Shown one piece after another: positions 2,939 to 57,466 of a stretch of DNA of 64,000 nt; the first letter of the stretch is position 1; every line of letters begins with the position of its first letter. This DNA comes from Acidobacteria bacterium RIFCSPLOWO2_12_FULL_66_21 (lineage in GTDB: Bacteria; Acidobacteriota; Vicinamibacteria; Vicinamibacterales; 2-12-FULL-66-21). The stretch covers positions 262,581 to 326,580 of the forward strand of contig MELC01000038.1 in NCBI GenBank assembly GCA_001767455.1, in the 5' to 3' direction. A model generated the notes under the pieces. It was not told the DNA's origin. It saw nothing but the letters and a program-made list of their open reading frames with translations, and made no database searches. A program made the translations under genes and the position numbers.

Positions 2939-2939
2939 C

Positions 2940-3646: not shown

Positions 3647-3674
3647 GCGTCAGTCCACCGTTCGGCGTTTCCGA

Positions 3675-3890: not shown

Positions 3891-5321
3891 ATGCCGCGAA
3901 CCGTCAGTGCATTCGGCGGACGTGCGGGCGCGATGCTCTCGCGGACGATGTCCTTCGCCGCGATCTTCACAGGGTTGGTCTTTCTTGGCGCCGTCGCCGG
4001 CCTTGCGGCGCTCGCCCGATACGCGCCGAACGAGCTGATCCCCCCCGTCGTACTGTTTTTTCTCATGAGCTTCTTCGTCGCGCACTTCGCGATGGAGGGC
4101 TACTCGGACGAATGGGAGCGATCGGGCCGCGCGATCCCTGCGGGCCAGGTCAGTCTCGTCGCGCTTCGCTACATGATCCTGACGCTCGTGCTGCTCGTGC
4201 CCCTGGCGCTCGCGGCGCCGTGGCAGAAGGCCGGCCTCGCGTCGGTGACGACGCCGACCGTGGGTGCCGTGCTCCTGCTGGTCTACGCGCTGATCGTTTC
4301 GATCGCGCCGCCTGCGTTCCTTGTGGTTTCGGTATCCGCCTCGTCGTGGGGCGAGCTGCTGTCCGCCGCGCACTGGCGGTCGCGGTTCGGCGGGCGCGGC
4401 GGCGACTTCTTCCTGATCTACGTCGTGTTCGTCGGAGCGCTGTTCTGCGTCCTGCTCGCGGGCCTGCCAATCGTGGGACTGGCCGGCATGAACAGCCCGA
4501 AAGCCATGACCCTGACGGGCGCCGCGATTACCGTGTTCGCCACGGGATTCTCGATCAGCCTGCTCGGCCGGCTCTGCGGGAGCTTCGCGGTTGTCGAAGC
4601 CGCCGCGGCCGTGGAGAAGGCGCCGCCGACGCTGCACCCGTCGCTCGCGCGTCTGGAGCGCGCCGGGGACGCGGGACACGCGCCGGCCGCCGGCGGCACC
4701 GCCCCCGACCCGTCCGCGACCACCGCCGCTCCGCATCCGCCCGGCCCCGCGCCGCGCAAGACCGCGCTTCTCGAGGCGGGCGCGAAGGTGGAGGAGCTGC
4801 GCGCCAGGCATGCCGGCGATGCCGCAGCGCTCGCGGCGGCGCTCGGTGAGCTCGACGAGACGTTCCTCCCCCACCCGGCGGTCCGCGCCGCGCTCGTCAT
4901 GGCGCTCGTCTCCGCGGGACGGCTCCAGAAAGCGGTCCCGCTCGCGCGCGAGGCGATCCCGCTCTGCCTCCGGTCCGGCAACGTCGGCGCCGCCGCGCTG
5001 ATGTGCGAGGCGCTGCACGCGACCGGCGACTCGCTCGGCTTGAGCAAGGAGCAGATGATCTCGATCGGCGACGCGCTGAAGGGCATGAAGCGGGGCGCCG
5101 CCGCGGTCGACCTCTACGCGCGCGTGCTGCGGCTCGACCCGACCGACGTGAAGGCCATGAAAGGCGCGATCGCGATCGCGCAGGAGCTGGCCCAGCAGAA
5201 GGACACCGCCGCCGTCGCCGTCCGCATCTACGATGCCCTGGTCAAGAACTGTCCCGCGTCTCCGCTGTTGGACTTCGTCAAAGCCGAACGGGAGAAAGCG
5301 AGCAGGAAGGCCGAAGCCTGA
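3891..5321 (+). CDS. Multi-pass membrane protein with C-terminal TPR-like domain
   Basis: The predicted 476-residue protein has about six hydrophobic segments in the first ~230 residues (for example FAAIFTGLVFLGAVAGLAAL, LIPPVVLFFLMSFFVAHFA and FFLIYVVFVGALFCVLLAGL). A Pro/Ala-rich linker follows at about 250-290, then a soluble helical region resembling tetratricopeptide repeats (LPHPAVRAALVMALVSAGRL; AAVDLYARVLRLDPTDVKAM). I chose the ATG at 3891 because GAGG lies seven bases upstream; a GTG at 3873 is also in frame. The last domain probably faces the cytosol and binds a partner. No family is recognised. Confidence 0.75.
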   Translation: MPRTVSAFGGRAGAMLSRTMSFAAIFTGLVFLGAVAGLAALARYAPNELIPPVVLFFLMSFFVAHFAMEGYSDEWERSGRAIPAGQVSLVALRYMILTLVLLVPLALAAPWQKAGLASVTTPTVGAVLLLVYALIVSIAPPAFLVVSVSASSWGELLSAAHWRSRFGGRGGDFFLIYVVFVGALFCVLLAGLPIVGLAGMNSPKAMTLTGAAITVFATGFSISLLGRLCGSFAVVEAAAAVEKAPPTLHPSLARLERAGDAGHAPAAGGTAPDPSATTAAPHPPGPAPRKTALLEAGAKVEELRARHAGDAAALAAALGELDETFLPHPAVRAALVMALVSAGRLQKAVPLAREAIPLCLRSGNVGAAALMCEALHATGDSLGLSKEQMISIGDALKGMKRGAAAVDLYARVLRLDPTDVKAMKGAIAIAQELAQQKDTAAVAVRIYDALVKNCPASPLLDFVKAEREKASRKAEA

Positions 5322-5336
5322 ACGCGGGTGGTCGTC

Positions 5337-10222: not shown

Positions 10223-12073
10223 CTAGGCGTCGAGCCGGGGCCGTGCTCGCGTGTCGAGAGCGCTCGGTTCCGGGCGCCAGTCGTGGGTCACGCGCAGCAC
10301 CTCTTCGAGCGTGGTGTCGCCGCTTCTGACAAGCGCCAGGCATTCTTCACGCATCGAGATCATCCCCGCCGCACGGGCGGCGTCGTGGAGGCGGATGTCC
10401 GGCGCGCGGACCAGCACCAGCTCGTTCATGGCGTCGGTCATCCGCAGGAGCTCGAAGACGCCGATGCGTCCGTGGAACCCGGTGCCCCGGCAATCGCGGC
10501 ACCCTCGGCCCCGGAAATACGTCGCCGGTTCTCCTTCCCGGAACATCGCCCGCAGCGCCGGCGGCGTCTGAACTTCGGCCCGGCACGTGGTGCACACCCG
10601 GCGCACGAGCCGCTGCGCGACGATTCCGATCACGCTCGACGCCAGCAGGTACGGCTCGAGCCCCATGTCGAACAGCCGCGCGATGGTGGCGACGGCGCTG
10701 TTCGTGTGCAGCGTCGAAAGCACCAGGTGCCCGGTGAGCGACGCCTCGATCGCCACCTCGAGCGTCTCGCTGTCGCGGATCTCGCCCACCATGATGACAT
10801 CGGGATCCTGCCGCAGAATCGACCGGAGGCCTTTCGCGAACGTGAAGCCGGCCTTGTCGTTCGTCTGTCCCTGGTTGAGCCCGGGGACCGCGTACTCCAC
10901 CGGGTCTTCGATGGTGACGATGTTCTTGCCGGTCTGCACGAGCTCGCCAAGCGCGGCATACAAGGTCGAGGTCTTGCCGCTCCCGGTCGGCCCGGTGATC
11001 AGGAGGATGCCCTCCGGCCGGTGAATCAGCTCGCGCATGGTCTCGAGCGGGACGCCGGTCAGGCCGGCCCGATCCAGCGTCAAGCGCAGCCGTCCGCTGT
11101 CGAGCAGCCGCAGCACCGCCTTTTCGCCATGGACCGTCGGGTAGGTCGAGCTGCGGAGGTCGAGACGCTGATCGCCGACCGTCGCGCTGAAGCGGCCGTC
11201 CTGCGGCAGCCGGTGTTCCGCGATGTCCATGCCGGACAGCACCTTGACGCGCGCCACGACGGCCGGCGCAAGCGCCGGCGGGAGCACCGCCACGTCGCGG
11301 AACGTCCCGTCCACCCGGAACCTCACGTGGAAGTCGTCTTGCCGTCGCTCGAAGTGAATGTCGCTGGCGCCGTCAGCGGCCGCGCGCGCGATGATCCGCT
11401 CGAGGACGGAGACGGCCGAACGTTCGGCAGCCTCGTCGCGCGCGAGGATCTGCGCGGCAGGCGAGTCGATGACGACGGCGCCGGCCTCGTCCTGCCCGAT
11501 GTCGGGAAGCCACTCGTCGCGGTAATACCGGTTCAGCGCGGCGAGGATTTCGTCCTCGAGGGCGAGCGCCGTCTGAATCTCACATCCGGACGCGAATCTC
11601 AGGTCGTCCAGCGCCGCGAGGTCTTTCGGCACCGCGAGCGCCACGAGCAGGACGCTGCCGGTCTTCTGCAGCGGGAACGCGGTGTGGCGGCGCGCGACTT
11701 TCTCCGGCAGCGCGCTGACGGCCTCCGGATGGACGGTGTAGCCGTTGATGCGGATCGTCGGGACGCCGAGCTGCTCGCTCAGGACCTCGAGCAGCGCTTC
11801 GGGGGTGAGAAAGCCGCAATCGACCAGAACCTTGCCGAGCCGCCGGCCGGTGTCCTTCTGCTGCTCGATGGCCCGTGCGAGCTGCGCGTCGGTGATGAGC
11901 CCACGTTCGACGAGCAGACTCCCGAGCGCGGTGTGTCCGTGCGGAGCGGTCGCGGGACGCGGCTTCGCGTCGCTCAGCGCCAGCACCCGTGCGCTTGTGG
12001 GCGGCATGCACAGGGGGGCCTGACTCGGCGCGCGAGATGGCGCCGGTCCCTTTCCAAACCGGATGGTGAGCAC
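10223..12073 (-). CDS. GspE/PilB-type secretion ATPase
   Basis: This 616-residue AAA+-like traffic ATPase of type II secretion or type IV pilus assembly carries an N-terminal MshEN/T2SSE_N domain at about 45-185 (L-G-S-L-L-V-E-R-G-L-I-T-D-A-Q-L). Walker A is GPTGSGKTS at 361-369, the Asp box is near 389, the Walker B region is RQDPDVIMVGEIRD at 421-434 and the His box is GHLVLSTLHTN at 448-458. A tetracysteine zinc site has CTTC at 494-497 and CRDC at 525-528. All catalytic motifs are intact. No other pilus or secretion gene lies nearby, so it is an isolated ATPase whose machine must be encoded elsewhere. A second Met at residue 23 (12007) is a possible start. Confidence 0.93.
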   Translation of the reverse strand: MLTIRFGKGPAPSRAPSQAPLCMPPTSARVLALSDAKPRPATAPHGHTALGSLLVERGLITDAQLARAIEQQKDTGRRLGKVLVDCGFLTPEALLEVLSEQLGVPTIRINGYTVHPEAVSALPEKVARRHTAFPLQKTGSVLLVALAVPKDLAALDDLRFASGCEIQTALALEDEILAALNRYYRDEWLPDIGQDEAGAVVIDSPAAQILARDEAAERSAVSVLERIIARAAADGASDIHFERRQDDFHVRFRVDGTFRDVAVLPPALAPAVVARVKVLSGMDIAEHRLPQDGRFSATVGDQRLDLRSSTYPTVHGEKAVLRLLDSGRLRLTLDRAGLTGVPLETMRELIHRPEGILLITGPTGSGKTSTLYAALGELVQTGKNIVTIEDPVEYAVPGLNQGQTNDKAGFTFAKGLRSILRQDPDVIMVGEIRDSETLEVAIEASLTGHLVLSTLHTNSAVATIARLFDMGLEPYLLASSVIGIVAQRLVRRVCTTCRAEVQTPPALRAMFREGEPATYFRGRGCRDCRGTGFHGRIGVFELLRMTDAMNELVLVRAPDIRLHDAARAAGMISMREECLALVRSGDTTLEEVLRVTHDWRPEPSALDTRARPRLDA

Positions 12074-12432
12074 GCGCGCGTGAGAGCAAGCTCAACGCCA
12101 GCTCGACGATTTTGTAACTGGTTATTCGGCAACACCTTGGATTGACGAGGAGGGTTGCGGAATTCCAGCGGTGTTCCAGATTGGGACAACCAGGTGTGGA
12201 ACTCGTCACCGGCACCGACCTGGCGAGCGCGGCCCTTTTCGGCAGCGTGCCGGGTTACAGTTTTGCGATGCCAGCCTTGATGGCGTAGTGGACGAGGCCG
12301 GCCTGGAGCGCGGGTTATCATTTATTTCGGTGACGCCACCCGGATGAGCAATCTGGCCGCGCGAGTGCGGTGAATCGAGCGCGTGCGATCGCATCGCAGC
12401 CCGCCGGACGAGACGTCGCGAGGGAGGGAAGG
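12074..12432. other. Intergenic region with no intact gene
   Basis: This 359-base divergent gap between the ATPase and the secreted-protein gene holds no intact gene. It contains a short remnant of a response-regulator C-terminus (12255-12311, minus). The bases 12300-12340 are AT-richer (TTATCATTTATTTCGG) and could carry a promoter for the rightward gene. I see no terminator or clear operator. Confidence 0.6.
12255..12311 (-). pseudogene. C-terminal remnant of a NarL-type response regulator
   Basis: On the minus strand, 18-19 codons ending in TAA at 12255 read A-L-Q-A-G-L-V-H-Y-A-I-K-A-G-I-A-K-L. This is the characteristic last helix of LuxR/NarL response regulators; the two intact ones in this window end ADIVLYAVRRGVIR and AEIVLYAVRKGIIV. 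In-frame stop codons (TGA TAA) sit just upstream, and no receiver or helix-turn-helix remains. Confidence 0.6.
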
Positions 12433-13206
12433 ATGAAGAACGCGCTCGCGGTTCTGTCGCTCCTCGTTCTTTCAGGCGGATCGCTCTGTGGCGACGTCCT
12501 CATCACCGAGACGATTGCCACGAAGGCCGGCAAACGCGATCTGCCCGGCACCCGCTCGACCTACATCAAAGGCCGGCAGATGCGGATCGACCTGGTACAG
12601 GACAAAGACTCCGCGTCAACCCTGTACGACTTGCGAGAGAACGTGACCATCGCGCTTGACGCGAAGAAGAAGCGGGCGGAAGTCCGCGACGTGGCGGAGC
12701 GCAGCGCGAAGCTCGAAACGCTGTACCCTCGCTCGCGCACGACGACGAGCGTGACGGCAACGGGGACCACTCGGGAGATCGCCGGCGCCTCGTGCGCCGA
12801 TCACGCCTTCAGCGTCCGTGTGCCCATGACGAAGGACGGCAAACTGGCGTTCATGCTGACGGGTTCCGCGTGCATCGCGAAAGACGCGCCGGGCGCGAGC
12901 GACTACCAGGCGTTCGCCCTCGCAGCCATCGAGCAGCAGGTCGTGCTCGGACCCGCGTCGGACAACCGCATCCTCCTGGCGCTGGCCAGGGGACAGACCG
13001 AGCTCTACCGCGGCCTCGCCGATCTCGGCGGCATCCCGTATGTCGTCGACATGAAAATGGACGTGGACGGCCACGGCATGGTGGCCGGCCTCGTCCGCAA
13101 GGCGATCGCCGGCAGCCGGACGTCCACCGTCAAGACGGTCGCCACCGCGCCGCTCGACGCTGCGACGTTCGCCGTGCCGTCCGGCTGGAAGCGCCAGCGC
13201 AAGTAA
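12433..13206 (+). CDS. Secreted protein of unknown function (DUF4412-like)
   Basis: This 257-residue protein starts at the ATG preceded by GGGAGGGAAGG. A signal peptide covers residues 1-20 (KNALAVLSLLVLSGGSLCGD); the Cys near its end could make it a lipoprotein but the lipobox is imperfect. The mature part begins VLITETIATKAGKRDLPGTR and contains a short beta-rich pattern with R-Q-M-R-I-D-L and L-Y-D-L-R-E-N-V-T-I-A-L-D, typical of LolA-like or DUF4412 folds. The C-terminus ends F-A-V-P-S-G-W-K-R. It probably sits in the periplasm. No partner is suggested by the neighbours. Confidence 0.65.
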   Translation: MKNALAVLSLLVLSGGSLCGDVLITETIATKAGKRDLPGTRSTYIKGRQMRIDLVQDKDSASTLYDLRENVTIALDAKKKRAEVRDVAERSAKLETLYPRSRTTTSVTATGTTREIAGASCADHAFSVRVPMTKDGKLAFMLTGSACIAKDAPGASDYQAFALAAIEQQVVLGPASDNRILLALARGQTELYRGLADLGGIPYVVDMKMDVDGHGMVAGLVRKAIAGSRTSTVKTVATAPLDAATFAVPSGWKRQRK

Positions 13207-13238
13207 CCCGCGAGGCGGCGCCGCAGAACGGATCCGCG

Positions 13239-13724
13239 TCAGGGCCAGATGCCGAGCGCACGGCGCACGGCGACGAGCTGGCCGAGATGATACGCGTTGT
13301 GATCGGCCACGAGCAGGATCGCGCGCAGGTACGTCTGCGGGCCCTTGCCGGTGGGCACGGTCGCGAACAGATCGATGCGCGCGTTGCGCGCCATCCTCTT
13401 CAGCTTCTCGCGATCCGCGTTGAACTGCGCGAGGCTCCGGTTCCACGCCCTCGCACCAGGCGGTGCGGGATCGCGGGGCCAGTAGTCGTCGGGCCACGCG
13501 AGCGCGTGCACGTACCGCGCATTGACGCAGAAGTCGAGGATGTCCTTCTGCCCCAGCCGCATGTGCTCGACGAGCTGCCACGGTGAATGCTCGAAGCCCG
13601 CCGGACGCGATCCGCGCCGGCGGGCCGGTATCCCGCTGACGGCCCTGTCGAAGCCGACATGGGCCTCTTCCCAGTCGAGGAGACGCACGAGCTGGGCACG
13701 AAGAGGATCGGGCGGTTTCTTCAT
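13239..13724 (-). CDS. DinB family protein
   Basis: This 161-residue four-helix protein matches the DinB/YfiT fold. It has an opening L-R-A-Q-L-V-R-L-L-D-W-E-E-A-H-V, a central S-P-W-Q-L-V-E-H-M-R-L-G-Q-x-D-I, and a closing A-D-H-N-A-Y-H-L-G-Q-L-V-A-V-R-R. The three His residues expected for metal binding (in W-E-E-A-H, V-E-H-M and A-D-H-x-x-Y-H) are present. Members act as thiol-dependent transferases or damage-inducible proteins; the substrate here is unknown. I placed the start at M-K-K-P-P-D rather than the longer frame because the family begins there. Confidence 0.85.
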   Translation of the reverse strand: MKKPPDPLRAQLVRLLDWEEAHVGFDRAVSGIPARRRGSRPAGFEHSPWQLVEHMRLGQKDILDFCVNARYVHALAWPDDYWPRDPAPPGARAWNRSLAQFNADREKLKRMARNARIDLFATVPTGKGPQTYLRAILLVADHNAYHLGQLVAVRRALGIWP

Positions 13725-29298: not shown

Positions 29299-30312
29299 AT
29301 GGATACGAACCTGCTCGCCGTGATCGGGCTGATGGTCGTCGCGCTCAGCTTCGACTTCATCAACGGCTTTCACGACGCGGCCAATTCGATTGCGACCGTC
29401 GTGTCGACCCGGGTGCTCACGCCGGGGCGGGCGGTCGTCTGGGCCGCGTTCTTCAACTTCGTGGCGGCGTTTACGTTCGGGACCGCGGTGGCGAAGACGG
29501 TCGGCGCCGGCCTCGTCGACATCAACGTGGTCACCTTCGCCGTGATCTTCGCCGCCCTGATCGGCGCGATCGCCTGGGACCTGATCACGTGGTACTACGG
29601 GTTGCCGACCAGCTCGTCGCACGCGCTCATCGGCGGCTACGCCGGAGCCGCGGTGGCCAAGGCGGGCTTTGCCGCGATCATCCTGGCTGGCTGGACGAAG
29701 ACGCTGGTGTTCATCGTCCTCGCGCCGGTCATCGGGCTGATCCTCGCCTTCGGCCTGATGGTCGCGATCCTGTGGGTCTTCTCGCCTTTCTCGCCGGGAC
29801 GCGTCGATCACTGGTTCCGCCGGCTGCAGCTCGTGTCGGCCGCCGCGTATAGCCTCGGCCACGGGGGCAACGACGCGCAGAAGACGATGGGCATCATCGC
29901 CGGCGCGCTGGTCGCGGGCAATTACCTGCAGCTCGTCGACGGAAAGCTGACCATTCCGATCTGGGTCATCCTGGCGGCGCACGCCGCCATTGCGCTCGGC
30001 ACGCTGTCGGGCGGCTGGCGGATCATCCACACCATGGGGTCGAAGATCACCAAGCTGCAGCCGGTCGGCGGGTTTGCCGCGGAAACGGCGGGCGCCTTGT
30101 CGCTGTTCGGCGCGACGTACCTGGGGGTGCCCGTCAGCACGACACATACGATCACCGGGGCGATCATCGGCGTCGGATCGATCAGGCGGCTGTCGGCCGT
30201 CCGCTGGGGCATCGCCGGACGTATTGTCTGGGCCTGGGTCCTGACGATTCCCGCGGCGGCCGCCATCGGCGCGATCGTGTATTGGGCCACCGCGGCCCTC
30301 GTCGCGCCCTGA
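29299..30312 (+). CDS. pit: PiT family low-affinity phosphate transporter
   Basis: This 337-residue inner-membrane protein has about ten helices and the two PiT signatures: D-F-I-N-G-F-H-D-A-A-N-S-I-A in the first half and S-L-G-H-G-G-N-D-A-Q-K-T-M-G in the second. These inverted-repeat motifs form the phosphate and cation sites of Pi:Na+ or Pi:H+ symporters. The length matches the short bacterial group. The start is the ATG at 29299 with GGA upstream. PiT genes commonly follow a DUF47/PhoU-like gene, which is absent here. The high-affinity Pst system is encoded 23 kb away. Confidence 0.94.
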   Translation: MDTNLLAVIGLMVVALSFDFINGFHDAANSIATVVSTRVLTPGRAVVWAAFFNFVAAFTFGTAVAKTVGAGLVDINVVTFAVIFAALIGAIAWDLITWYYGLPTSSSHALIGGYAGAAVAKAGFAAIILAGWTKTLVFIVLAPVIGLILAFGLMVAILWVFSPFSPGRVDHWFRRLQLVSAAAYSLGHGGNDAQKTMGIIAGALVAGNYLQLVDGKLTIPIWVILAAHAAIALGTLSGGWRIIHTMGSKITKLQPVGGFAAETAGALSLFGATYLGVPVSTTHTITGAIIGVGSIRRLSAVRWGIAGRIVWAWVLTIPAAAAIGAIVYWATAALVAP

Positions 30313-31031: not shown

Positions 31032-34000
31032 TCACAGCCGGTGCTGGGTGGGTTTCCCTGCGACGGCCTCGCCTTCGATCGCGATCCGCACGCCAAGCAC
31101 GCCTCTTCCGCGATCGAAGCGGTAGTCCAGCGATTGCGATCGCGAAGCGCACAGGTGGGCGATGAATCCAACCGTCTGCAACAGGCCCGCGCCGTGGCAG
31201 AACGCCGTGAACATCAGCGCGGCAGCCAGCCGCTGAAGGTCCTCCTCCGTGCAGCGCGTCCATGCTTTCGGGTCGCCGCCAAGGCCGAACTGATCGATCC
31301 ACGCGCCGAGCGTCCGAACTGGCGACTCTCTGGGCTCGCGCATCAGCCGGGCGAGCGTCCCCACGCGCGCGTCGAGGCGCGGCAGCTTCCGGAGGTCGAT
31401 CTCGAACTCGACGTTGGCCGGCGGCATGGACGGCTCGCACACGAGCCGCTTCAGCGCCACGAGAATGCCGTATGCCGCCGCGGCGACCTGTTCGTCCTGT
31501 GACATGTCCGCGAGCGGGAACGACTGCGTTCCCGCGACGTTCGGCAGCGCGAACGGCACGAGGGCCCGCAGCCGTGCGATAGCCGCGTTCAGGTCGGCGT
31601 TTCCTGCGGCAACGATCTGCGAGAGGTCGTTGGCCAGATTGTGAAGATCCGCGGGCCGGATGATCGGATCTCCGTGGAGCTCCCATGACATCACCTGGGG
31701 CTCGCAGCTCTGGCGGTCCCAGTACACGAGTTGCGCCTGTCCGGCCTCATCGATCTCCAGGGCCCAGATGATCCCCTCCCACCATCCGCCGGTGCCGCTG
31801 TTGTAGTACGGCACCTTCATCCACGACATCTGATACTCGTAGGTGCCGCGCGGCGTCTTCACGTCGATCGTGGGCTCGGGGAAATTGAGGTACGGGCGGC
31901 TCTGCGGGTTGTGGGTGTGCCCCATGGCGATCTGGATCTGGGGGCCTGGCAGGCTGCAGGGCTTGATCGGCCCGAACGAGTCATAGCCGAGCAGCAGTGA
32001 CAGCGATGCCGCGAGCGTTTCCGAGAACGACAGGCTGTCGTGGAGCCGGCGATCCGTTTCCTCCATGAATTCGATCTGCCGTGCCCAGGCCTTTGACACA
32101 TCCTCGGGAGGCCAGTTGTCCCAGGGCGAGAAGCGCCAGGCCACTTCCGCCAGGGCGTACCCAGGCAGGATTCCCTCGACGAATGATGGCACCAGCGCCT
32201 GCCAGTCGCGTCGCTTCGTGATGTAGTCGGCGAACTTCAGCCACGGATTCCCGGCGATGTCGATGCCTTTCAGATAGTAGGGCAGCGCGTCGATCCCGTC
32301 GGCCGGCACGCCGACCGCGTTGGTGATGACGAGCCCCAGAAACTGGTGTTCGTCACAGTTCCAGAAATCGACCTGGTGACCGTGAAGAACGAACAGGGGT
32401 TTGCGGGAACGGTAATGGTCGGGACTCAGTCCGAGCGGCAGGCGATCGATCAGATACTGCAGAACGTCGTCGGTGTTCGCCGCCTCGAGTATCCCGAGGA
32501 GGTCCTGTTCCATGTCCTTGACCTCGGGGATGACGAGGCCGTCGTAGATCTCGAAGCCCGACCCGTACAGGCGCTGCAGCCGCGGCAGACGTGCCGGATC
32601 GAAGTTCCACCAGTTGTCGTGGTTGCCGCGCGTCCGGAAATACCGGTTGTTCGAATGCAGGTCGCGGAGAATCGCGTATACGTCTCCATGCGTTGTCAGC
32701 ACGTCCGCCGACCGGTCCTCGACGGAATCCACGACGTGCGGGCGGTACCAGAGCTCCTCGCAGTCACCGTTCTCGATGACGACGTAGCCGTGGTCCTTGC
32801 AGTACGTCAGCGCCCGTTTGTACATCTCTTTGTTCGCGGAGAAATGGGTAACGTCGAAGAGGTACGGATGCACACGATCGGAGGACGCGTCGCGGTGCAG
32901 ATCTGAAAAGATCATGTACTTCTGTTTCGTCGCCGGCGTGAGCTCCTTGATCTTCAGCTGGCGATCATGTTCGTGGATCTTCCGGATGTCCTGGCCAATC
33001 CACTCCAGGAACCGCATCGGAATGGCCGCGGCGATCAGAATCAGCGCCGGCAGCAGGACCACGAACGCGGCCGGCACGCGGCCAATCCAGACGAGCACCT
33101 GCTGCCCCGCCGCGCCGGCGTCGTGGAGCGCCGACACCAGCGCAAAAACGAACGCGGTCAGCGGTCCGGGCATCGCGGCCGCCGATCCCGACGACCCGGC
33201 CAGCGCCTTGCCGACGAGCCACGCCGGCATCGGCACGTCGAGCACGCCCAGGCCACCGACCCGTCGTTCGAGTGGCGCCTCGCCCGCAAAGACGCTGGTG
33301 CCGCCGCTCGTGCCCAGCCATGCGGCCACTTCGGTGGCCAACGTTCCGATGTGGTTCGCGGTGGCCGCCGCGGCATGCAGCGCCGCAAAGATCAGCGTGA
33401 AGAGCGTCAAGGCGTCCGCCGGTTGATTTGCGAAAAGCCGGATCGGAATCTCGAGGAGCCGTCGCACCTCCGTCCACGCGACGGCGCCGCTGTCGACGAG
33501 CACGCGCACGAGCCGCTCGATCCACGACGGCTGGCGCGTAAAGACGTGGGCGACGACGCTCTGGATGTCGAGCCAGTGCTCGGACGCGAGTTGCTTAACC
33601 AACCGGCCAACCGCCGTGTCGCGCTCCGGAGAGACGATGCCCAATGCGAGCAGCACGAGCCAGGGCGCGTCGAAGCCCGGTCGATCGTGCAGCGCACGCA
33701 CGAGAAGCCTGAACACGTTCTCGGCGCCGGCGCGGCTGGCGGCCACGAGCAGTCGCTGAACGAGAACGTCGAGGCCGTCGGTGTAGGTGATGCGCAGGAG
33801 CAGGGCAATCGCTTCGGCCGCGACCCCGGAGCCTGCAATCGCCGTCACCAGTCCGCCGACGCCCCAGCTGGTGTTCGCGAGGACCTGAAGCAGGTGGATG
33901 CGGTGGCCTTCATCCGGAACCGCCTTGAACATCGCTGCGATGAGCTCAGACGTCGTCAGCAGCGCGCGGTCGGTGATGAACGTCACGACCGCGGCGATCG

Positions 34001-34235
34001 TGTCGTCGTTGTCGCGCAGGACGGCGATGCCGAGAAGCAGCTTGCCGAGCTCGGACGCCGGGAAATACGGGCTGAGCTTGTCGAACAGCTCGTTGGCGGC
34101 AGCCGTGTCTCCGGTGCCGATCGCCGTCACGAGCTCCTCGAGCCACGTACTCAGGTCGACGCTCGATCCGGCGGTCGTCTCGGCCGTCTCGATGACCCCG
34201 GAAACTGTTTCGCGCAGATCGTCCCACCAGCTCAT
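31032..34235 (-). CDS. Giant calcineurin-like metallophosphoesterase with helical N-terminal region
   Basis: This 1067-residue protein starts at the ATG behind GGGAG. Residues 1-~310 are all-helical and resemble loose HEAT-like repeats (LDVLVQRLLVAASRAGAENV, HWLDIQSVVAHVFTRQPSWI). Hydrophobic stretches lie near 360-370 and 388-408 (FVVLLPALILIAAAIP). A metallophosphoesterase domain follows with all metal-binding motifs: S-D-L-H at 444-447, N-G-D at 489-491, G-N-H-D at 537-540, H-G-H at 618-620 and G-H-T-H at 772-775. About 150 residues are inserted between the last two motifs. Residues ~860-1067 form an unrecognised helical domain. Typical family members are 250-400 residues. It is read 41 bases after the 34277-36187 gene, so both are one operon. 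Substrate and role are unknown. Confidence 0.8.
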   Translation of the reverse strand: MSWWDDLRETVSGVIETAETTAGSSVDLSTWLEELVTAIGTGDTAAANELFDKLSPYFPASELGKLLLGIAVLRDNDDTIAAVVTFITDRALLTTSELIAAMFKAVPDEGHRIHLLQVLANTSWGVGGLVTAIAGSGVAAEAIALLLRITYTDGLDVLVQRLLVAASRAGAENVFRLLVRALHDRPGFDAPWLVLLALGIVSPERDTAVGRLVKQLASEHWLDIQSVVAHVFTRQPSWIERLVRVLVDSGAVAWTEVRRLLEIPIRLFANQPADALTLFTLIFAALHAAAATANHIGTLATEVAAWLGTSGGTSVFAGEAPLERRVGGLGVLDVPMPAWLVGKALAGSSGSAAAMPGPLTAFVFALVSALHDAGAAGQQVLVWIGRVPAAFVVLLPALILIAAAIPMRFLEWIGQDIRKIHEHDRQLKIKELTPATKQKYMIFSDLHRDASSDRVHPYLFDVTHFSANKEMYKRALTYCKDHGYVVIENGDCEELWYRPHVVDSVEDRSADVLTTHGDVYAILRDLHSNNRYFRTRGNHDNWWNFDPARLPRLQRLYGSGFEIYDGLVIPEVKDMEQDLLGILEAANTDDVLQYLIDRLPLGLSPDHYRSRKPLFVLHGHQVDFWNCDEHQFLGLVITNAVGVPADGIDALPYYLKGIDIAGNPWLKFADYITKRRDWQALVPSFVEGILPGYALAEVAWRFSPWDNWPPEDVSKAWARQIEFMEETDRRLHDSLSFSETLAASLSLLLGYDSFGPIKPCSLPGPQIQIAMGHTHNPQSRPYLNFPEPTIDVKTPRGTYEYQMSWMKVPYYNSGTGGWWEGIIWALEIDEAGQAQLVYWDRQSCEPQVMSWELHGDPIIRPADLHNLANDLSQIVAAGNADLNAAIARLRALVPFALPNVAGTQSFPLADMSQDEQVAAAAYGILVALKRLVCEPSMPPANVEFEIDLRKLPRLDARVGTLARLMREPRESPVRTLGAWIDQFGLGGDPKAWTRCTEEDLQRLAAALMFTAFCHGAGLLQTVGFIAHLCASRSQSLDYRFDRGRGVLGVRIAIEGEAVAGKPTQHRL

Positions 34236-34276
34236 GGCAACTCCCTCTCTGAACGAAAACCAACCAGAGGGCCCGG

Positions 34277-36187
34277 CTAACGTTCCAGCAGCGCCACCAG
34301 AAGACGAACGGCCGCGGCGCGCGCCGCCGGCGAAATGTGCGCCGGCACGGGATCCGTGCGCCCGCCATCGATTCTCGATGGATCCACGGGTCCGCCCCCG
34401 GCCGGATCGGCAATCGGCGACGGATCCGTGTGATGCGAATCGTTGCTTTGCACGCGCTGACTGAGCTCGAGGATGATGCTGAGGAAACCGAGCTCGCTGA
34501 CGCGCGAGCCACCAGGCCCGATTCGGGGAACGTTCCCGCACCCGAACTCACCGTCCGAGTAGGTGACGAGACTGCGAAGCCCATCGCCGATCACGATGTA
34601 CTGGGACGCGTACGGATTTCCCTCACCGCCGCCGTACGGATCGTCGTCCATCGGATTGGGGTACCCGTCGTCGCCAGACGGCGGCACCTCCGTGTCGTCG
34701 GTCGGCACCTCTTCTTCGTCCGGCTCGTCTTCGGGTTCGTCGTCCTCCGGCTCGTCGGCCGGCTCGTCCTCCGTATCGTCTTCCGTATCGTCGGTCGTGC
34801 CGCTGTTCGACCCTGTATCCTCATCGTCGTCGGCGCCAATGGCGCCCAGCACGAACCCGATGGCCGAGCCCGCGGCGTCTCCCATCGCGCCGAACGCCGA
34901 GCCTGCCGCGTCACCCATGGCGCCGAAAGCGTCGCCGATGACTCCAGCCAGCTCGTTCCCGAATCCGCCTGCGGCGTCTCCGAGCCCGTTGAGAAAGCTG
35001 TTGAACGAATCGAGCGCATCACGCGCGTTGTTCATCGAGGTGTTGAACTCGCTTCCGTAAAAGTCACCGATATCGTTCATGAACGACTCGAAGCCACCGC
35101 GCAGCCCGCCGAGAGCTTCGCTGAAGCGGTCACCCATCATCGACCAGACATCTTCGACTCCCGACAGGATCTCGCCCGTGATGTCCTCGCGCATCTGGTC
35201 GAGCCGCCCCTTCATCTCGTGGGCGACGGCGGTGAGCTTCTCGATGTCGTCGAGAATGCCCATCTCGCTCAGCGCCTGAAGGACTGCGGGCTGAACCAGC
35301 ACCTGCGCGACGAACGCACCGAATGCGTCGATCGCTTCCGACACCAGTCGTTCGTGCTCCTGCTGGGCGTTTGCGCTCACGTACGCGTCGCCCACCTGGA
35401 GCCATGTTCCGGTCGTGACGAATGACGCGTGCTTGGCCGCGAGTGTGGCCGCTATGCTTCCGGCCTTGCCGACGATCGCGGAGACCCACGACCACTCCCG
35501 TTGACGTTGTTCTTCCTGCACCGCCTTCGAGTCGCCGCTGTCGCTCGATTCGGTGCCGTCGGCCTTCTCGGACCGGCGAAAGAAACGAGGCTGGAGCGCG
35601 AGGATGTTCCCGCGGCCGCGATCGCGGCGCCGCGCAGACGGCAGGGGCTCCACGCGGGCATCGATGAACCTGATCGTGTTGGTGGCCGAGTTGTAGACCG
35701 GCGCCGCGTGAAAACCGCCGCCGATTTCGCGCGGCGGACCGATGCGGCGCCAGAGAATCTCGCCGCGCCGGACGAGGTGAGCGCGCCCGAGCGACCGGGC
35801 CGTGTGCATCCCCGAGAAGAACACGCTCTCGAGACCGTCGAACGACCAGCCGGCTTCGATGAACCCGAGTGCGGACGAGAACAGCGACAGCCGCTCACGA
35901 TCGTGGCTCGCGACATAGTGGCCGAGGAAGCAGGTCACCGCATGGTGAAAGACCGTTGCTGCCTTGCGCCGGGTCAGCCGCGCGGTCGTCGTGAGCTGAA
36001 TCCCGCGATCCCAGCCGATGGCGCGCCGATGGAGGTCCTGCATCCGCCGCCAGGCCATGTCCGTCCCGTGGAACCAGAGCGTTCCACGCACGAGGCGAAT
36101 CGATCCGGACCCGGTGCGAAGAACCTGCCTCCGCCTGGGCGCTTGCTTTACCCTGGAAGGACGAGCCGCGAGTGTTTCGATGGCCAT
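34277..36187 (-). CDS. Large protein of unknown function with glycine-zipper and acidic linker
   Basis: This 636-residue protein matches no family I recognise. Residues 1-200 are basic and globular, with aromatic-rich blocks (F-H-H-A-V-T-C-F-L-G-H-Y and F-F-S-G-M-H-T-A-R). Residues 270-400 are amphipathic helices. Residues 401-450 are Gly/Ala-rich with two copies of F-G-A-M-G-D-A-A-G-S-A (421-431 and 432-442), resembling membrane-inserting glycine zippers. Residues 453-516 are an extreme Asp/Glu/Pro linker. The C-terminus holds G-D-G-L-R-S-L-V-T-Y-S-D-G-E-F-G-C-G, and ends in an Ala-rich helix. No signal peptide is seen. It precedes the metallophosphoesterase gene and follows a LytTR regulator gene by 65 bases. 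Confidence 0.65.
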   Translation of the reverse strand: MAIETLAARPSRVKQAPRRRQVLRTGSGSIRLVRGTLWFHGTDMAWRRMQDLHRRAIGWDRGIQLTTTARLTRRKAATVFHHAVTCFLGHYVASHDRERLSLFSSALGFIEAGWSFDGLESVFFSGMHTARSLGRAHLVRRGEILWRRIGPPREIGGGFHAAPVYNSATNTIRFIDARVEPLPSARRRDRGRGNILALQPRFFRRSEKADGTESSDSGDSKAVQEEQRQREWSWVSAIVGKAGSIAATLAAKHASFVTTGTWLQVGDAYVSANAQQEHERLVSEAIDAFGAFVAQVLVQPAVLQALSEMGILDDIEKLTAVAHEMKGRLDQMREDITGEILSGVEDVWSMMGDRFSEALGGLRGGFESFMNDIGDFYGSEFNTSMNNARDALDSFNSFLNGLGDAAGGFGNELAGVIGDAFGAMGDAAGSAFGAMGDAAGSAIGFVLGAIGADDDEDTGSNSGTTDDTEDDTEDEPADEPEDDEPEDEPDEEEVPTDDTEVPPSGDDGYPNPMDDDPYGGGEGNPYASQYIVIGDGLRSLVTYSDGEFGCGNVPRIGPGGSRVSELGFLSIILELSQRVQSNDSHHTDPSPIADPAGGGPVDPSRIDGGRTDPVPAHISPAARAAAVRLLVALLER

Positions 36188-36252: not shown

Positions 36253-37008
36253 CTACGTGATCGTGAATTCATGCCGGTACCGGCGGCTCATTCGAAGCGC
36301 GCGGCCGCCGGCCAGCGTGATCTCGGCGTCCCCGTTGCCCAGCCGCCTGACTTCCTTCACCTTCGACAGGTTGACGATGTGCGAGCGGTGGATCTGCGCG
36401 AAGCGCTCGCGCGGCAGCCTGGCCGCAAGCCGCTGCAATGACTCGCGCATCAGGTGCTCCTTCCCGGCGACGTGCACAATCACGTATTGATCCGCCGCCT
36501 GGATCCAGTCGATCTCATCGAAGTTCACGAACACGATGCGGTTGCCCGTGGGTACGGCGAGCCGCGGCACCGGGACGGCCGGCACCGCGCCCGCGGACCG
36601 CGGTGTGGCCGCGAGCAGCCGGCGCGCCCACTGCGCGCTCCGCCGCTCGTCGATCCGGTGCCGCGCCCGATCGAACGCCGCGAGGAACCGCGCCTCGTCG
36701 AACGGCTTGAGCACGTAATCGATCGCCTCCACCTCGAACGCGCGGAGCGCGTACTTGTCGAACGCCGTGACGAACACGGTGGGTGGCACCTTGTCCGCGC
36801 CGAGCGCGTGGATCACCCCGAACCCGTCCAGGCCCGGCATCTGCACGTCGAGAAGCAGCAGGTCCACGGTGACCCACTGCAGCACTTCGACCGCCTCGGT
36901 GCCGTTCCGGCACTCCGCCACGATCTCGACCCCCCCGCGCCGCCCGAGCAGGATCCGGATCGCCGCGCGCGCGTGCGCCTCGTCGTCCACGATGGCCACG
37001 CGCAGCAT
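36253..37008 (-). CDS. LytTR-family response regulator
   Basis: This 251-residue regulator has a receiver domain (1-~120; D-D-E near the start, phospho-Asp in LLLLDVQMPGLDGF, and V-L-K-P-F). An Ala/Pro linker precedes the LytTR DNA-binding domain (I-D-W-I-Q-A-A-D-Q-Y-V, L-P-R-E-R-F-A-Q-I-H-R-S-H-I-V-N, and a final S-R-R-Y-R). It overlaps the kinase gene by one base (TGATG). LytTR proteins bind paired short direct repeats upstream of cell-envelope or secretion genes. The next gene on the same strand is the 636-residue unknown, the most obvious candidate target. Confidence 0.92.
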   Translation of the reverse strand: MLRVAIVDDEAHARAAIRILLGRRGGVEIVAECRNGTEAVEVLQWVTVDLLLLDVQMPGLDGFGVIHALGADKVPPTVFVTAFDKYALRAFEVEAIDYVLKPFDEARFLAAFDRARHRIDERRSAQWARRLLAATPRSAGAVPAVPVPRLAVPTGNRIVFVNFDEIDWIQAADQYVIVHVAGKEHLMRESLQRLAARLPRERFAQIHRSHIVNLSKVKEVRRLGNGDAEITLAGGRALRMSRRYRHEFTIT

Positions 37009-38111
37009 CAGCCGGACCTCGCGACGGGCGCGTCCGACAGAGGCAGCACGAGCGTTGCGCGCACGCCGGCTCCGGTGCTCGACAGCTCGATCCGGCCGGG
37101 CGGAGTCCGGGCCTTCAGCCGTTCGGTGACGTTCTTCAGGCCATACCCGCTTCCCTCCTCCGGCACGAATCCCTCGGGCAGCGGCGGCCCGTCGTTGTCG
37201 ATGGTGATCCGCAGCGCTCCTTCTTCGAGTGTCGCGGCGATGCTGAGCGTTGAATTCTCGACGCGTCGCGATATCCCGTGACGAAAGGCGTTCTCCACGA
37301 GGGGCTGCAGGATGAACGCCGGGACCGGCGCGTCCATGGCCGCCGGATTGATGTCCCAGTCGATCCGCAGCCGGTCCGCGAACCGCGCCTCCTCAATCGT
37401 CAAATAGCGGCGAAGGTACTCGATCTCCTCGCCGAGCGGCGTGAGATCGGTGTCGCGGTGTGCCAGCGTGTCCCGGAGGAGCCCGCCCAGCTCGGCGAGC
37501 AACGCCACCGCGCGCTCGTTCTGGCGCTGCATCACGAGCGACCCGATCGTGTGCAGCGTGTTGAACAGGAAATGCGGCTGGAGCTGCATGCGCAGCGCCG
37601 TCAGCCTCGCGCCGGTCAATTCCGCCTCAAGGCGGAGCGCCTCATGCTCCCTGGCGCGCAGCAGCGCGGTCGCGCGCGAAGCATGCGCCACCGCGACGAT
37701 CGCCGCGTACACGATCAGCTCGAGATGGAAGTACGCGGTCACGAAGAAGACCGCGGTCCCGGCCAGCGAACGGTCGAATCCCGCAAACCACGACGGCGGG
37801 ATCGGAAGGCGGATGAGCGCGTGATAGAGCGCCAGGTAGGCCGCCAGCACCGCCGCCGCGACGACGAAGGCCGCGGCGAGATGACTGAGGAGCGCGTGCC
37901 ACCGGCGCGCGGGACCGATCGGCCATCGGCGCTCGAGATCCCAGACGAACGGACCCGCCACCGCCCACAGCTCCCAATGAAAAAGCTGCGTGGCGAGCGC
38001 GGCGGCGAACGGCATGCGCACGCCCCGCATGCGGTAACCGAAGTAGAGCTGCGAGGCGACCGCCACCGATGGAACCATCGCGGCGGCGGCGAGCATCGCG
38101 GCTCGATTCAT
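37008..38111 (-). CDS. LytS/YehU-type sensor histidine kinase
   Basis: This 367-residue kinase has four hydrophobic helices in residues 1-150, then the His_kinase (PF06580-type) motif L-R-M-Q-L-Q-P-H-F-L-F-N-T-L-H-T-I-G with the phospho-His. A HATPase_c domain follows (L-Q-P-L-V-E-N-A-F-R-H-G and G-S-G-Y-G-L-K-N-V). No separate sensor domain is present, so it probably senses through the membrane helices. Its 5' end overlaps the upstream gene by ATGA and its 3' end overlaps the LytTR gene, so three genes form one tight operon. Confidence 0.92.
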   Translation of the reverse strand: MNRAAMLAAAAMVPSVAVASQLYFGYRMRGVRMPFAAALATQLFHWELWAVAGPFVWDLERRWPIGPARRWHALLSHLAAAFVVAAAVLAAYLALYHALIRLPIPPSWFAGFDRSLAGTAVFFVTAYFHLELIVYAAIVAVAHASRATALLRAREHEALRLEAELTGARLTALRMQLQPHFLFNTLHTIGSLVMQRQNERAVALLAELGGLLRDTLAHRDTDLTPLGEEIEYLRRYLTIEEARFADRLRIDWDINPAAMDAPVPAFILQPLVENAFRHGISRRVENSTLSIAATLEEGALRITIDNDGPPLPEGFVPEEGSGYGLKNVTERLKARTPPGRIELSSTGAGVRATLVLPLSDAPVARSG

Positions 38112-53043: not shown

Positions 53044-53754
53044 TTAGCCGGCGTTGCCACGTGCGTCCCGCGTTTCTCCGTCCGCCGCGTGGTGCCGGAC
53101 GTCCCGCGCGTTGACGATGAAGATGACGTCTTCGGCGATGTTCGTGGCGTGGTCGCCGACGCGCTCCAGGTGGCGCGAGACGAGGATCAGATCGATGCCG
53201 GGCTCCACCGTGCGCGGCTCGCCGAGCATGTAGGTGAGCAGCTCTCGGAAGATCTGGTTCTTCAAGTCATCCAGCAGGTCGTCGCGATCGAGCACGCCCT
53301 GCGCCAGCGCGACGTCGCGCGAGACGAACGCGTCCAGCGCGTCGTGCAGCATCGCCTGCGCGAGCTCGGCCATGCGCGGAATATCCACGAGCGGCTTCAC
53401 CGGGGGATGTGTGGTGTACCGCTCGGCAGCTTCGGCAATGTTCACCGCGAGGTCGCCGACGCGCTCCAGATCGTTGTTGATCTTGACGGCCGCGACGATG
53501 GTCCGGAGGTCGCCGGCCATCGGCTGGTGCAGCGCCAGCAGCTTGAAGCAGCGATCGTCGATGTCGACGTGAAACCGGTTGATCTCGACGTCGCCGGCGA
53601 TGACGCCGGCCATCACGGAAGCCTCGCGCGTCACGAGGCCGTGCACCGCCAGGCGCAGGCGCTCTTCCGCGAGCCCGCCCATCATCAGCAGGCGCTGCTT
53701 CAGCCGATCGAGGTCCTCGGCAAAGTGCCGTGTGTCGTGCAGGTCCTGGCTCAT
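53044..53754 (-). CDS. phoU: Phosphate signalling protein PhoU
   Basis: This 236-residue protein has two PhoU three-helix repeats. Each carries the metal-binding E-x-x-x-D signature: N-N-D-L-E-R-V-G-D-L-A-V-N-I-A-E in the first and S-R-H-L-E-R-V-G-D-H-A-T-N-I-A-E in the second. PhoU links the Pst transporter to PhoR and represses the Pho response at high phosphate. It is the last gene of the operon, two bases after pstB. The C-terminal tail (R-H-H-A-A-D-G-E-T) is variable in the family. Confidence 0.96.
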   Translation of the reverse strand: MSQDLHDTRHFAEDLDRLKQRLLMMGGLAEERLRLAVHGLVTREASVMAGVIAGDVEINRFHVDIDDRCFKLLALHQPMAGDLRTIVAAVKINNDLERVGDLAVNIAEAAERYTTHPPVKPLVDIPRMAELAQAMLHDALDAFVSRDVALAQGVLDRDDLLDDLKNQIFRELLTYMLGEPRTVEPGIDLILVSRHLERVGDHATNIAEDVIFIVNARDVRHHAADGETRDARGNAG

Positions 53755-53756
53755 GG

Positions 53757-54596
53757 CTAACCAAACCGTCCTGTGACGTAATCGTCCGTCAGCTTCTCGC
53801 GGGGATTGGTGAACAGTTGTTCCGTCGGCGCCACTTCGACGAGCTTGCCGAGCCAGAAGAACGCCGTCACATCCGAGACACGCGCCGCCTGCTGCATGTT
53901 GTGCGTCACGATGACGATCGTGTAGTCGCGCTTCAGCTCGTAAATCAGCTCTTCGATGCGCTGCGTCGCGATCGGATCGAGCGCCGAGGCCGGTTCGTCC
54001 ATCAACAGCACGTCGGGCTGGACGGCGAGCGCGCGCGCGATGCAGAGCCGCTGCTGCTGTCCGCCCGACAGCGCCAGCGCGGATTCGTGGAGTCGATCCT
54101 TGACCTCGTCCCACAGCGCCGCGCGCCGCAGGCTCGCCTCGACGCGCTCACGGAGGTCGCCCCGCGACGAGGCCAGCCGATTCACGCGAATCCCGTACGC
54201 GACGTTGTCGAAATTGGACTTCGGGAACGGATTCGACCGCTGAAAGACCATGCCGACGCGGCGCCTGAGCGCGACGACGTCCACGCCGGCCGCGTAAATG
54301 TCCGCGCCGTCGAGCGTCACGCGTCCGGCAATCCGCGTCTTCGGCACGATGTCGTTCATTCGGTTCAAGGTGCGCAGGTACGTGGATTTGCCGCAGCCGG
54401 AGGGGCCGATCAACGCCGTCACCTGGTTCGATCCGATGTCCAGCGTGACGTCGTGCAGCGCCTGCTTCCCGCCATAGAACAGGCTGACGCGCTCGGTCGC
54501 GATCTTCACCGGGTGCGGCGATTCTGCCTCGGCGCCGGTGGCATGGCGCTCGACTCTCGGACGGGCGATGGGTGGGCTGGCCGTCACTCGGGTCAT
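53757..54596 (-). CDS. pstB: Phosphate ABC transporter ATPase PstB
   Basis: This 279-residue ABC ATPase has Walker [11 protein letters not shown]-loop F-Q-R-S-N-P-F-P, signature L-S-G-G-Q-Q-Q-R and Walker [13 protein letters not shown]. The L-R-T-L-N-R-M-N-D and P-F-P-K-S-N-F-D segments mark it as PstB rather than another importer ATPase. The first ~25 residues are a variable extension; a later start is possible. It lies four bases after pstA. Confidence 0.97.
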
Positions 54597-54600
54597 GTCC

Positions 54601-55464
54601 TCAACCGGGGGAAACGGCCGGACGCCGCACCATCACCCGCGCCGCGACGTTCGCGGTGAGCACGAGCGCGAGCAGCACGAGCGCCGCCGCCCAGGCCTGA
54701 CGGTGCCAGTCGTCGTACGGCGCGATCGCGTAGGTGAAGATCATCACGGGCAGCGACGCGGTCGGTTCCGTCCATCCGTGGCTCCAGAAGCGGTTGTTGA
54801 GCGCCGTGAAGAGCAGCGGCGCCGTCTCGCCGGCCACGCGCGCGAGGCCGAGCATGACCGCCGTCAGGATGCCGCGGCTCGCCGCCGGCACGACGACGCG
54901 CGCAATCGTGATCCATCTCGTGGCGCCGAGCGCGAGCGACGCCTCACGGAGCGACGGCGGGACCGCCCGCAGGAACTCCTCGGTCCCCCGCACCGTGACG
55001 GGGACCATCATGATCGCGAGCGCGACGCCGCCCGCGATCGTCGAGAAGTGGTGCATCGGCAGCACGACCAGCGTGTACGCCACGATGCCGATGACGATCG
55101 ACGGCACGCCGTTGAGCAGATCCGTCGCGTACCGCAGCGCGAAGGCTGGCCCCGGCGACGCGAATTCGGCGATGTAGAGGCCCGCCATGAATCCCAGCGG
55201 GACCCCGACGAGCGCCGCGAGCAGCAGCAGCTTGGCCGATCCGAGCAGCGCATTCGCCATTCCACCGCCCGGTTCTCCGACTGGTGTCGGCAGACGGGTG
55301 AAGAAGGCGAGGTTCAGGGACGACCCGCCTTGATACACGAGGTACCCCAGGACGAAGGCGAGCGCGGCCACGGTGAGCGCCGCGCACAGCGCCGTGGATC
55401 CGAGCATCAGCACGTTCACCGATCGCCGCCGCGCCGACGTCAAGGCCACCCGGTCGATCTTCAC
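54601..55464 (-). CDS. pstA: Phosphate ABC transporter permease PstA
   Basis: This 287-residue permease has six membrane helices and the PstA pattern [26 protein letters not shown] and the EAA-type loop [13 protein letters not shown]. It forms the channel with PstC. Its start overlaps the pstC stop (ATGA). Confidence 0.95.
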
Positions 55465-56399
55465 GCGGCCGTTCCCCGCCGCGTCGTCACGACGATGAGA
55501 ATGCGTGCGAAGGCGTTGACGATCATCGTCAGCAGGAACAGCACCAGGCCAATCTCGACCAGCGCGTGCAGGTACAGGTTTCCGGTCGCTTCCGTGAATT
55601 CATTCGCAATCACGGCCGCCATCGAATAGCCGGGAGCGAACAGCGACGCCGAGATCTCGGGACGGTTGCCAATCACCATCGTGACGGCCATCGTCTCCCC
55701 CAGCGCGCGACCGAGCGCGAGGAAGACGGCTCCGAAGACGCCCAGCCGCGCGTACGGCAGCACGACGCGCGCGGTGCTCTCCCAACGGGTCGAACCGAGC
55801 GCAAGCGCGGCCTCGCGCTGTTCGCGCGGCACGGCGAGCAGGACCTCGCGCACGACCGACACGATGAAGGGCACGATCATGATCGCCAGCACGAGGCCCG
55901 CCGTCAGGTACCCCACGCCATAGGCCGGCCCGGTGAAGACCGGAATCGATCCTGCAACGCGCTGGAGCGCCGGCTGGACGTACTGGCGCATGAGCGGCAC
56001 CAGCACGGCGACGCCAATCAGGCCGTACACGACGCTCGGCACCGCCGCCAGCAGCTCGATGACGAGCGTCAGCGCGTCGGAGATCCGCCGCGGGGCCAGC
56101 TCCGCAAGGAACAGCGCGGCGCCAATCCCGAGCGGGACGGCCACGATGAGCGCAATCGCGGAGGTGACGACGGTGCCGTAGATGAACGGCGCCGCGCCGT
56201 ACTGGTCGGCGACCGGATCCCAGGTCTGCCCCGTCAGAAAGCTCCAACCGAAGCGGTGACGCGCGAGCGACGAGTTGACGACCAGCTCGAACGCGACGAG
56301 CGTCGTCAGCAGCGCGAGCGTCAGCCCGAACAGCAGCGCCATCAGATGCGCGACCTCGTCGCCGTTCCGCAGCCGCGCCCGCCATCCGCCGGCCGGCAT
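55461..56399 (-). CDS. pstC: Phosphate ABC transporter permease PstC
   Basis: This 312-residue permease has six membrane helices with F-L-T-G-Q-T-W-D-P, L-L-A-A-V-P-S-V-V-Y-G-L-I-G and the EAA loop R-E-A-A-L-A-L-G-S-T-R-W. F-G-A-V-F-L-A-L-G-R-A-L-G-E-T-M-A-V-T-M-V-I-G-N is the PstC signature. It starts two bases after the pstS stop. Confidence 0.95.
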   Translation of the reverse strand: MPAGGWRARLRNGDEVAHLMALLFGLTLALLTTLVAFELVVNSSLARHRFGWSFLTGQTWDPVADQYGAAPFIYGTVVTSAIALIVAVPLGIGAALFLAELAPRRISDALTLVIELLAAVPSVVYGLIGVAVLVPLMRQYVQPALQRVAGSIPVFTGPAYGVGYLTAGLVLAIMIVPFIVSVVREVLLAVPREQREAALALGSTRWESTARVVLPYARLGVFGAVFLALGRALGETMAVTMVIGNRPEISASLFAPGYSMAAVIANEFTEATGNLYLHALVEIGLVLFLLTMIVNAFARILIVVTTRRGTAA

Positions 56400-56401
56400 C
56401 G

Positions 56402-57466
56402 TCAGGATCCCACGTGCACTTGCGCAATGGTCTGCCGCTCCTTGGCGACCACTTCTTTCGGGAGCGGCGCATAGGACAAGGGCGCGGCCATCGACTGGCC
56501 GTCGGCGAGCATCCACTGCAGGAAGTCGACAATCGCCTTGCCTCTGTTCTGATCGGCGATATGCGCCGGCACGAGCAGCCAGGTGAAGCTCGCGATTGGA
56601 TAGGCGTCGGGGCCGGCGGCGTTGGTGATCGACACGCGGAAGTCATCCGGCATCGTGGCGGCCGTCGCCGCGGCCGCGGCCGTGACGCCGGCCAGGTCGG
56701 CCTTGAGGAACGTTCCGGCCGCGTTCCGCACCGCCCCGTACGCGAGCTCGTTCTGGACGGCGTAAAGCAGCTCCACGTAGCCGATCGAATTCGGCGTCTG
56801 TTTCACGAGACCGGTCACCCCCTCATTGCCCTTGCCGCCAAGACCGACCGGCCAGTTCACCGAGCTGTTGCTGCCCACCCGCAACTTCCAAGCCGGGCTG
56901 ACCTTGCTCAGATAGTCGGTCCACACGAACGTCGTGCCGCTGCCGTCCGACCGGTGCACGACGACGATGTCGGAGGCCGGCAGGGTGATGCCGGCGTTCT
57001 CCCTGGCGATCGCCGGGTCGTTCCATTTCTTGATCGTGCCGAGGAAGATCCCGGCGAGCGCGTCCGGCGTGAAGTTCAGGTCCTGGGTAATCCCGGCCAC
57101 GTTGTAGGTCGGCACCACCGCGCCAAGCACCGTTGGAAAATGCAGGACCTTCACTTTCGCCTGGCCGAGCTGCTCGTCGGTCATGGGCATATCGCTCGCT
57201 CCGAAGTCCACCGTGCCGGCGAGCATCTGGCGAACGCCTGCGCCGGATCCCTGCGATTGGTAGTTGATCTCCACGCCGGGATGGCGCTTGTGGTACTCGT
57301 CGAACCACTTCGAATAGAGCGGATAGGGAAACGTCGCGCCGGCGCCGGTGACCGACACGCGTGCGCCGCTCGACGGCGTCGAAGCGGACGGTGGTTCACC
57401 CGGCTTGCCGCTGCAGGCGACGGCGGCTGCGGCAAGCGTCAGCACAAAGCCAATGCGTGTTTTCAT
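56402..57466 (-). CDS. pstS: Phosphate-binding protein PstS (lipoprotein)
   Basis: This ~354-residue periplasmic binding protein is preferred from the ATG at 57466, with GAGG six bases upstream; an ATG at 57472 is also in frame. The signal ends A-A-A-V-A-C-S, a lipobox-like site. Binding residues lie in G-A-G-A-T-F-P-Y-P-L-Y, Y-Q-S-Q-G-S-G-A-G-V, D-F-G-A-S-D-M-P-M and R-S-D-G-S-G-T-T-F-V-W-T-D-Y, all characteristic of PstS. The porin stop lies within ten bases upstream, so the two are coupled. Confidence 0.96.
   Translation of the reverse strand: MKTRIGFVLTLAAAAVACSGKPGEPPSASTPSSGARVSVTGAGATFPYPLYSKWFDEYHKRHPGVEINYQSQGSGAGVRQMLAGTVDFGASDMPMTDEQLGQAKVKVLHFPTVLGAVVPTYNVAGITQDLNFTPDALAGIFLGTIKKWNDPAIARENAGITLPASDIVVVHRSDGSGTTFVWTDYLSKVSPAWKLRVGSNSSVNWPVGLGGKGNEGVTGLVKQTPNSIGYVELLYAVQNELAYGAVRNAAGTFLKADLAGVTAAAAATAATMPDDFRVSITNAAGPDAYPIASFTWLLVPAHIADQNRGKAIVDFLQWMLADGQSMAAPLSYAPLPKEVVAKERQTIAQVHVGS

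Follow-up and report, generated by a model that had tools for sequence, protein, structure and literature searches.

A probably laterally spread, solenoid-fused calcineurin-like metallophosphoesterase in an Acidobacteria genome and its changing gene neighbours

The window analysed here is a stretch of 64,000 nucleotides located on contig 38 of an Acidobacteria genome (6.48 Mb, 91 contigs). Genome analysis led to two large ORFs on the same strand (Table 1), one encoding a 1067 aa protein with a calcineurin-like metallophosphoesterase (MPE) domain (P0001) and the other a 636 aa protein (P0002). They are separated by 41 bases, exactly as an earlier sequence-only reading had described them. Both are real coding genes. 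A Shine-Dalgarno sequence (GAGAGGAG or AGAGGGAG) precedes each ATG, and in a codon-likelihood test with the neighbouring genes as the reference set the annotated frame beat the other five in both cases, a weak codon signal in the 636 aa gene being confined to its first ~60 codons. A LytTR response regulator and a His_kinase sensor are established directly upstream of the 636 aa gene, on the same strand and with a gap of 65 bases, and the regulator pair, the 636 aa gene and the MPE gene could possibly form an operon. Promoter and terminator scans of the locus gave signals at or below chance. Synteny through the upstream histidine kinase was uninformative, because the closest kinase in the relatives is only ~38% identical. 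On the other side of the MPE gene, a PiT/PHO4 phosphate permease is located with its end convergent with the MPE gene, and a pstS-C-A-B-phoU-like phosphate uptake cluster was recognized 23 kb from the permease.

Table 1. Coordinates of the features in the window and of selected genes at the loci of relatives.
Location	Feature	Position	Strand	Evidence
Window	1067 aa solenoid MPE (P0001)	31032..34235	-	Open frame with SD, coding statistics, seven relatives
Window	P0001 N-terminal alpha-alpha solenoid, residues ~1-312	33300..34235	-	AlphaFold, Foldseek, homology to L016 and L017
Window	P0001 hydrophobic stretch at residues 352-405, a putative membrane hairpin	33021..33182	-	GRAVY 1.74 and 2.72
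Window	P0001 calcineurin-like MPE domain (residues 437-856) with five metal motifs	31668..32927	-	Motif alignment, Pfam PF00149
Window	P0001 C-terminal domain, residues 857-1067	31035..31667	-	Homology to L016
Window	636 aa orphan (P0002) with a basic N-terminal part, long helices, a Gly/Ala repeat and an acidic linker	34277..36187	-	SD, coding statistics
Window	33-bp tandem repeat in P0002, 2.0 copies, doubling AFGAMGDAAGS	34863..34927	-	TRF score 102, 87% matches
Window	Degenerate 12/24-bp repeats encoding the P0002 acidic linker	34712..34793	-	TRF
Window	LytTR response regulator and His_kinase sensor	36253..38111	-	Pfam PF04397, PF00072, PF06580
Window	PiT/PHO4 phosphate permease	29299-30312	+	Pfam
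Window	pstS-C-A-B-phoU-like cluster	53044-57358	-	Sequence reading
L029	KSB1 partner	10453-11745
L030	KSB1 partner	11260-12564
L017	KSB1 partner	11840-13243
L031	KSB1 partner	11308-12441
L012	Giant beta-rich protein	1-1311
L019	Giant beta-rich protein	3-5777

P0001 harbors all five metal motifs of the calcineurin-like superfamily in order (SDLH at residue 444, GDCEEL at 490, GNHD at 537, HGHQ at 618 and GHTH at 772), with a spacing similar in its seven relatives, which bears out the claim of a complete motif set inside an unusually large protein. SDxH, GDC(E/D)EL, GNHD, HGHQ and GHTH, followed by Y/F-N-S-G, are common to all eight family members. In the five members aligned, D445, H447, the E494 region with D491, G537-D540, H618/H620 and H773/H775 are invariant, as are many residues on the substrate side, and the five metal motifs stay unchanged despite a divergence of up to ~70% within the family. 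Against Pfam PF00149 (Metallophos) P0001 scores 14.3 bits, under the gathering cut-off of 21.5, and the match is sub-threshold for four members other than the Polyangium protein P0006, P0001 included; P0006 passes with 22.1 bits. Compared with the superfamily, P0001 also differs by its 1067 aa length with a helical solenoid of about 312-350 residues and a hydrophobic stretch, by the ~150 residues that lie between motifs IV and V, and by a C-terminal domain of ~210 residues. The first estimate of ~400 residues before the MPE domain and ~200 behind it was close, the actual figures being about 430 and about 210.

The solenoid is homologous in L016 and L017 and was modelled by AlphaFold with a pLDDT mostly of 75-94, while the MPE core, in a model built from only five sequences, often stays below 50. 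Because the core was poorly modelled, Foldseek returned helical repeat proteins only (designed repeats, PPR, TPR and importin-type), and the fold assignment therefore rests on the motifs and the profile scores. The C-terminal domain has a modest pLDDT, no Pfam match and detectable homology to L016 only (E-value = 2.4e-12). The membrane-like sequence proposed for the protein was located at residues 387-405 (GRAVY 2.72), with a second hydrophobic peak ahead of them, and a hydrophobic peak is found 25-48 residues ahead of the MPE domain in seven of the eight family members. On this hydropathy, P0001 is probably membrane-associated. No signal peptide was seen by eye and basic residues come after the stretch, so that the simplest topology would be a hairpin that leaves the enzyme on the cytoplasmic side. 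NCBIfam and a PDB sequence search gave no meaningful match for either P0001 or P0002, and PADLOC none for P0001. The claim that the locus matches no known system is thus upheld, as no library system was matched and the architecture is undescribed.

A single-protein scan of genome contigs led to nothing, and rescanning with an alignment revealed four loci. In total, seven relatives were found, giving eight members from four bacterial phyla. They belong to the Acidobacteria MAG Ga0077522 (L012, the same as L018), which is of the same order as the window genome, the Deltaproteobacteria MAG SM23_61 (L016), a KSB1 MAG (L017) with three further genomes of that phylum (L029, L030 and L031), and Polyangium sp. 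y55x31 (L019, with P0006). The family was detected in two of 396 Acidobacteriota genomes, in one of 379 genomes of a Myxococcota sample (the phylum of Polyangium) and one of 108 of the Polyangium family, in one of 297 genomes of the phylum of L016 and in four of 82 of the phylum of L017. Plasmids, phages and viral contigs yielded no homologue. By sequence, this is an undescribed and very rare family within the calcineurin-like superfamily. Its tree consists of two well supported clades, between which the N-terminal and C-terminal parts of the proteins differ: P0001 clusters with the Desulfo (L016) and KSB1 (L017) proteins (100/100), and the second Acidobacteria MPE with that of Polyangium (96/92). 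This incongruence with the organisms, together with the patchy distribution, implies that the family spread laterally. An architecture of a solenoid-fused and probably membrane-associated MPE, with no name in the libraries, is in this way added to a very large superfamily.

Study of the gene neighbourhoods showed that the MPE gene occurs at seven other loci, none of which has the 636 aa gene nearby; a conserved two-gene system, as had been proposed, is therefore not present. In L016 the MPE gene is in a single-gene setting, with no same-strand gene directly upstream, and elsewhere the neighbours differ and stand at gaps of 12-265 bases, the very outcome, solitary homologues and an unconserved gap, that the sequence-only reading had itself named as refuting the unit. 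At L018 the neighbour is a 257 aa protein that looks membrane-anchored with a coiled-coil, and at L019 a 1179 aa PG_binding_1 protein is located 12 bases upstream. All four KSB1 loci have a partner of 430-467 aa adjoining the MPE gene (the L031 copy is cut by the contig end), with the motifs WTFCPxIGEP, GFxDLGHFFNC and TSADTIEDR. It has no Pfam match and only weak PDB matches (E-value of 0.08 or more), and was not found in the genome of the window or in G456, G458 and G459. Around these loci, a papain-type protease is in line 9 bases upstream of the partner in L030, a type I restriction-modification operon precedes the MPE locus in L017, and a caspase lies near it on the opposite strand in L029. 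The upstream genes showed no relatedness across the MPE loci by phmmer or blastp. At the loci that have an upstream gene (L016 has none), a fast-evolving homologue of P0002 may be present beyond recognition. Of the sequence-only reading, then, the assignment to the MPEs holds, as do the claims that the architecture is undescribed and that no library system matches, and the two-gene unit does not: P0001 is a real, undescribed architecture in a known superfamily, its pairing with P0002 is false, and the claim of a conserved pair of membrane protein and MPE is withdrawn.

Concerning P0002, no recognizable homologue was found in 100 relative genomes, in four MPE-carrying genomes searched whole, or in plasmids, phages and viral contigs; for the three further KSB1 genomes its absence was judged by the neighbourhood of the MPE gene. 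Searching its N-terminal part against the 396 genomes of the phylum gave matches with E-values of 0.001-0.01 in 12 Acidobacteriota genomes, but these matches are short and dispersed, internal stops interrupt several of them, and they seem to be due to chance. Homology to the KSB1 partner was likewise rejected (hhalign probability 0.2%). PHROGs returned tape-measure matches (best E-value = 2.6e-6), but these are compositional and cover the Gly/Ala helical part only; with no homologue in phages or viral contigs and no tail genes recognized around it, P0002 was not retained as a phage tail tape-measure protein. A PADLOC match to LeoB over the Gly/Ala and helical part is weak (E-value = 0.015) and of low complexity. 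The Gly/Ala segment had been read as a glycine zipper suited to membrane insertion. It has Asp at regular intervals and low hydropathy, and no 19-residue window in it exceeds 1.6 on the Kyte-Doolittle scale, the only such window of the protein being residues 285-303. Moreover, its two copies of AFGAMGDAAGS are due to the 33-bp tandem repeat, as the acidic linker is to the 12/24-bp repeats, and membrane insertion is therefore not indicated. P0002 is a local orphan and would be at most a local accessory protein.

Our best explanation, held at about an even balance of probability, is that P0001 is a rare, laterally spread, large calcineurin-like MPE, acting as a membrane-held and solenoid-regulated phosphohydrolase next to a gene that varies with the lineage. 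It is probably a membrane-associated phosphohydrolase. The hydrophobic stretch would anchor the protein to the inner membrane on its cytoplasmic side, and the solenoid would bind a protein or ligand (a regulator or a target) that places or switches the enzyme. The predicted two-metal site would hydrolyse a phosphoester or phosphoanhydride in a substrate that is most likely membrane-linked or nucleotide-type, and the neighbouring gene would change from lineage to lineage, being the 636 aa orphan in the window. Eight concrete MPE members in four phyla and the conserved partner family of KSB1 provide a basis for functional tests.

Two other readings, of similar weight to each other, are unlikely but deserve to be set beside this one. 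According to the first, the family is a conflict effector (anti-phage or programmed-death), with the solenoid as the sensor of an invader, the MPE as the enzyme that breaks down nucleic acid or nucleotides, and a partner gene specific to the lineage. The effector domains listed for bacterial conflict systems in PMC8195603 include calcineurin-like phosphoesterases. The family resembles these effectors in that its MPE-type domain is part of a large protein of several domains with a patchy distribution, and some members are near proteases or restriction-modification genes, with the operon, the caspase and the papain-type protease each at a single KSB1 locus. The implied lateral spread would also suit this reading. 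However, no STAND NTPase, EAD, bDLD or TRADD-N domain, and no other NTPase or known adaptor domain, was detected in the MPE protein, and the MPE domain is central in P0001 instead of being a swapped N-terminal one. The lack of a PADLOC match and of homologues in phages, plasmids and viral contigs also argues against it, no defence genes lie beside the MPE in the window, L016 or L018, and the L029 caspase is on the opposite strand. The effector, envelope-stress or defence role suggested earlier found no direct support.

The second reading, which we consider just as doubtful, takes P0001 as an LpxH-like envelope enzyme of outer-membrane or cell-wall lipid metabolism, which would cleave a pyrophosphate or phosphodiester linked to a lipid. 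The motif order of P0001 (SDLH / GDxxEL-W / GNHD / HGH / GHTHxP / N-S-G) recalls that of LpxH (UDP-2,3-diacylglucosamine diphosphatase; ADLHL / GDLFEAW / GNRD / HGD / GHTHRP), sharing a W after GDxxE, an HG ahead of motif V, and GHTHxP, and the hydrophobic stretch ahead of the MPE domain as well as the PG-binding-type and membrane coiled-coil neighbours at the loci of relatives would suit such a function. LpxH, however, is a 240 aa protein with no solenoid. Alignment of the P0001 family with E. coli LpxH by hhalign was not significant (probability 3.8%), with only the GHTHxP patch aligned, P0001 matches no NCBIfam family and no Pfam family above threshold, and the family is too rare for a core envelope enzyme.

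Somewhat less probable than either is a laterally mobile system in which a constant solenoid-MPE would be combined with a lineage-specific partner that sets the trigger or target, such partners being the 636 aa orphan, the membrane coiled-coil protein, the PG-binding-type protein and the conserved ~430 aa KSB1 protein (which can be in line with a papain-type protease). Least likely of all, P0002 as a membrane-active protein would form with the MPE a dedicated and recently assembled system, possibly under the LytTR pair, as the shared strand, the short gap, the SD sequences of both genes and the regulator and kinase directly upstream might suggest, but the lack of a recognizable P0002 homologue in the 100 relative genomes and in the four whole MPE-carrying genomes, its uninformative single-sequence model (pLDDT 41.5) and the lack of an intrinsic membrane segment in its Gly/Ala part weigh against it.

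Finally, giant beta-rich proteins are established beside the MPE gene in the second Acidobacteria genome and in Polyangium, the latter carrying an alpha/beta hydrolase domain.
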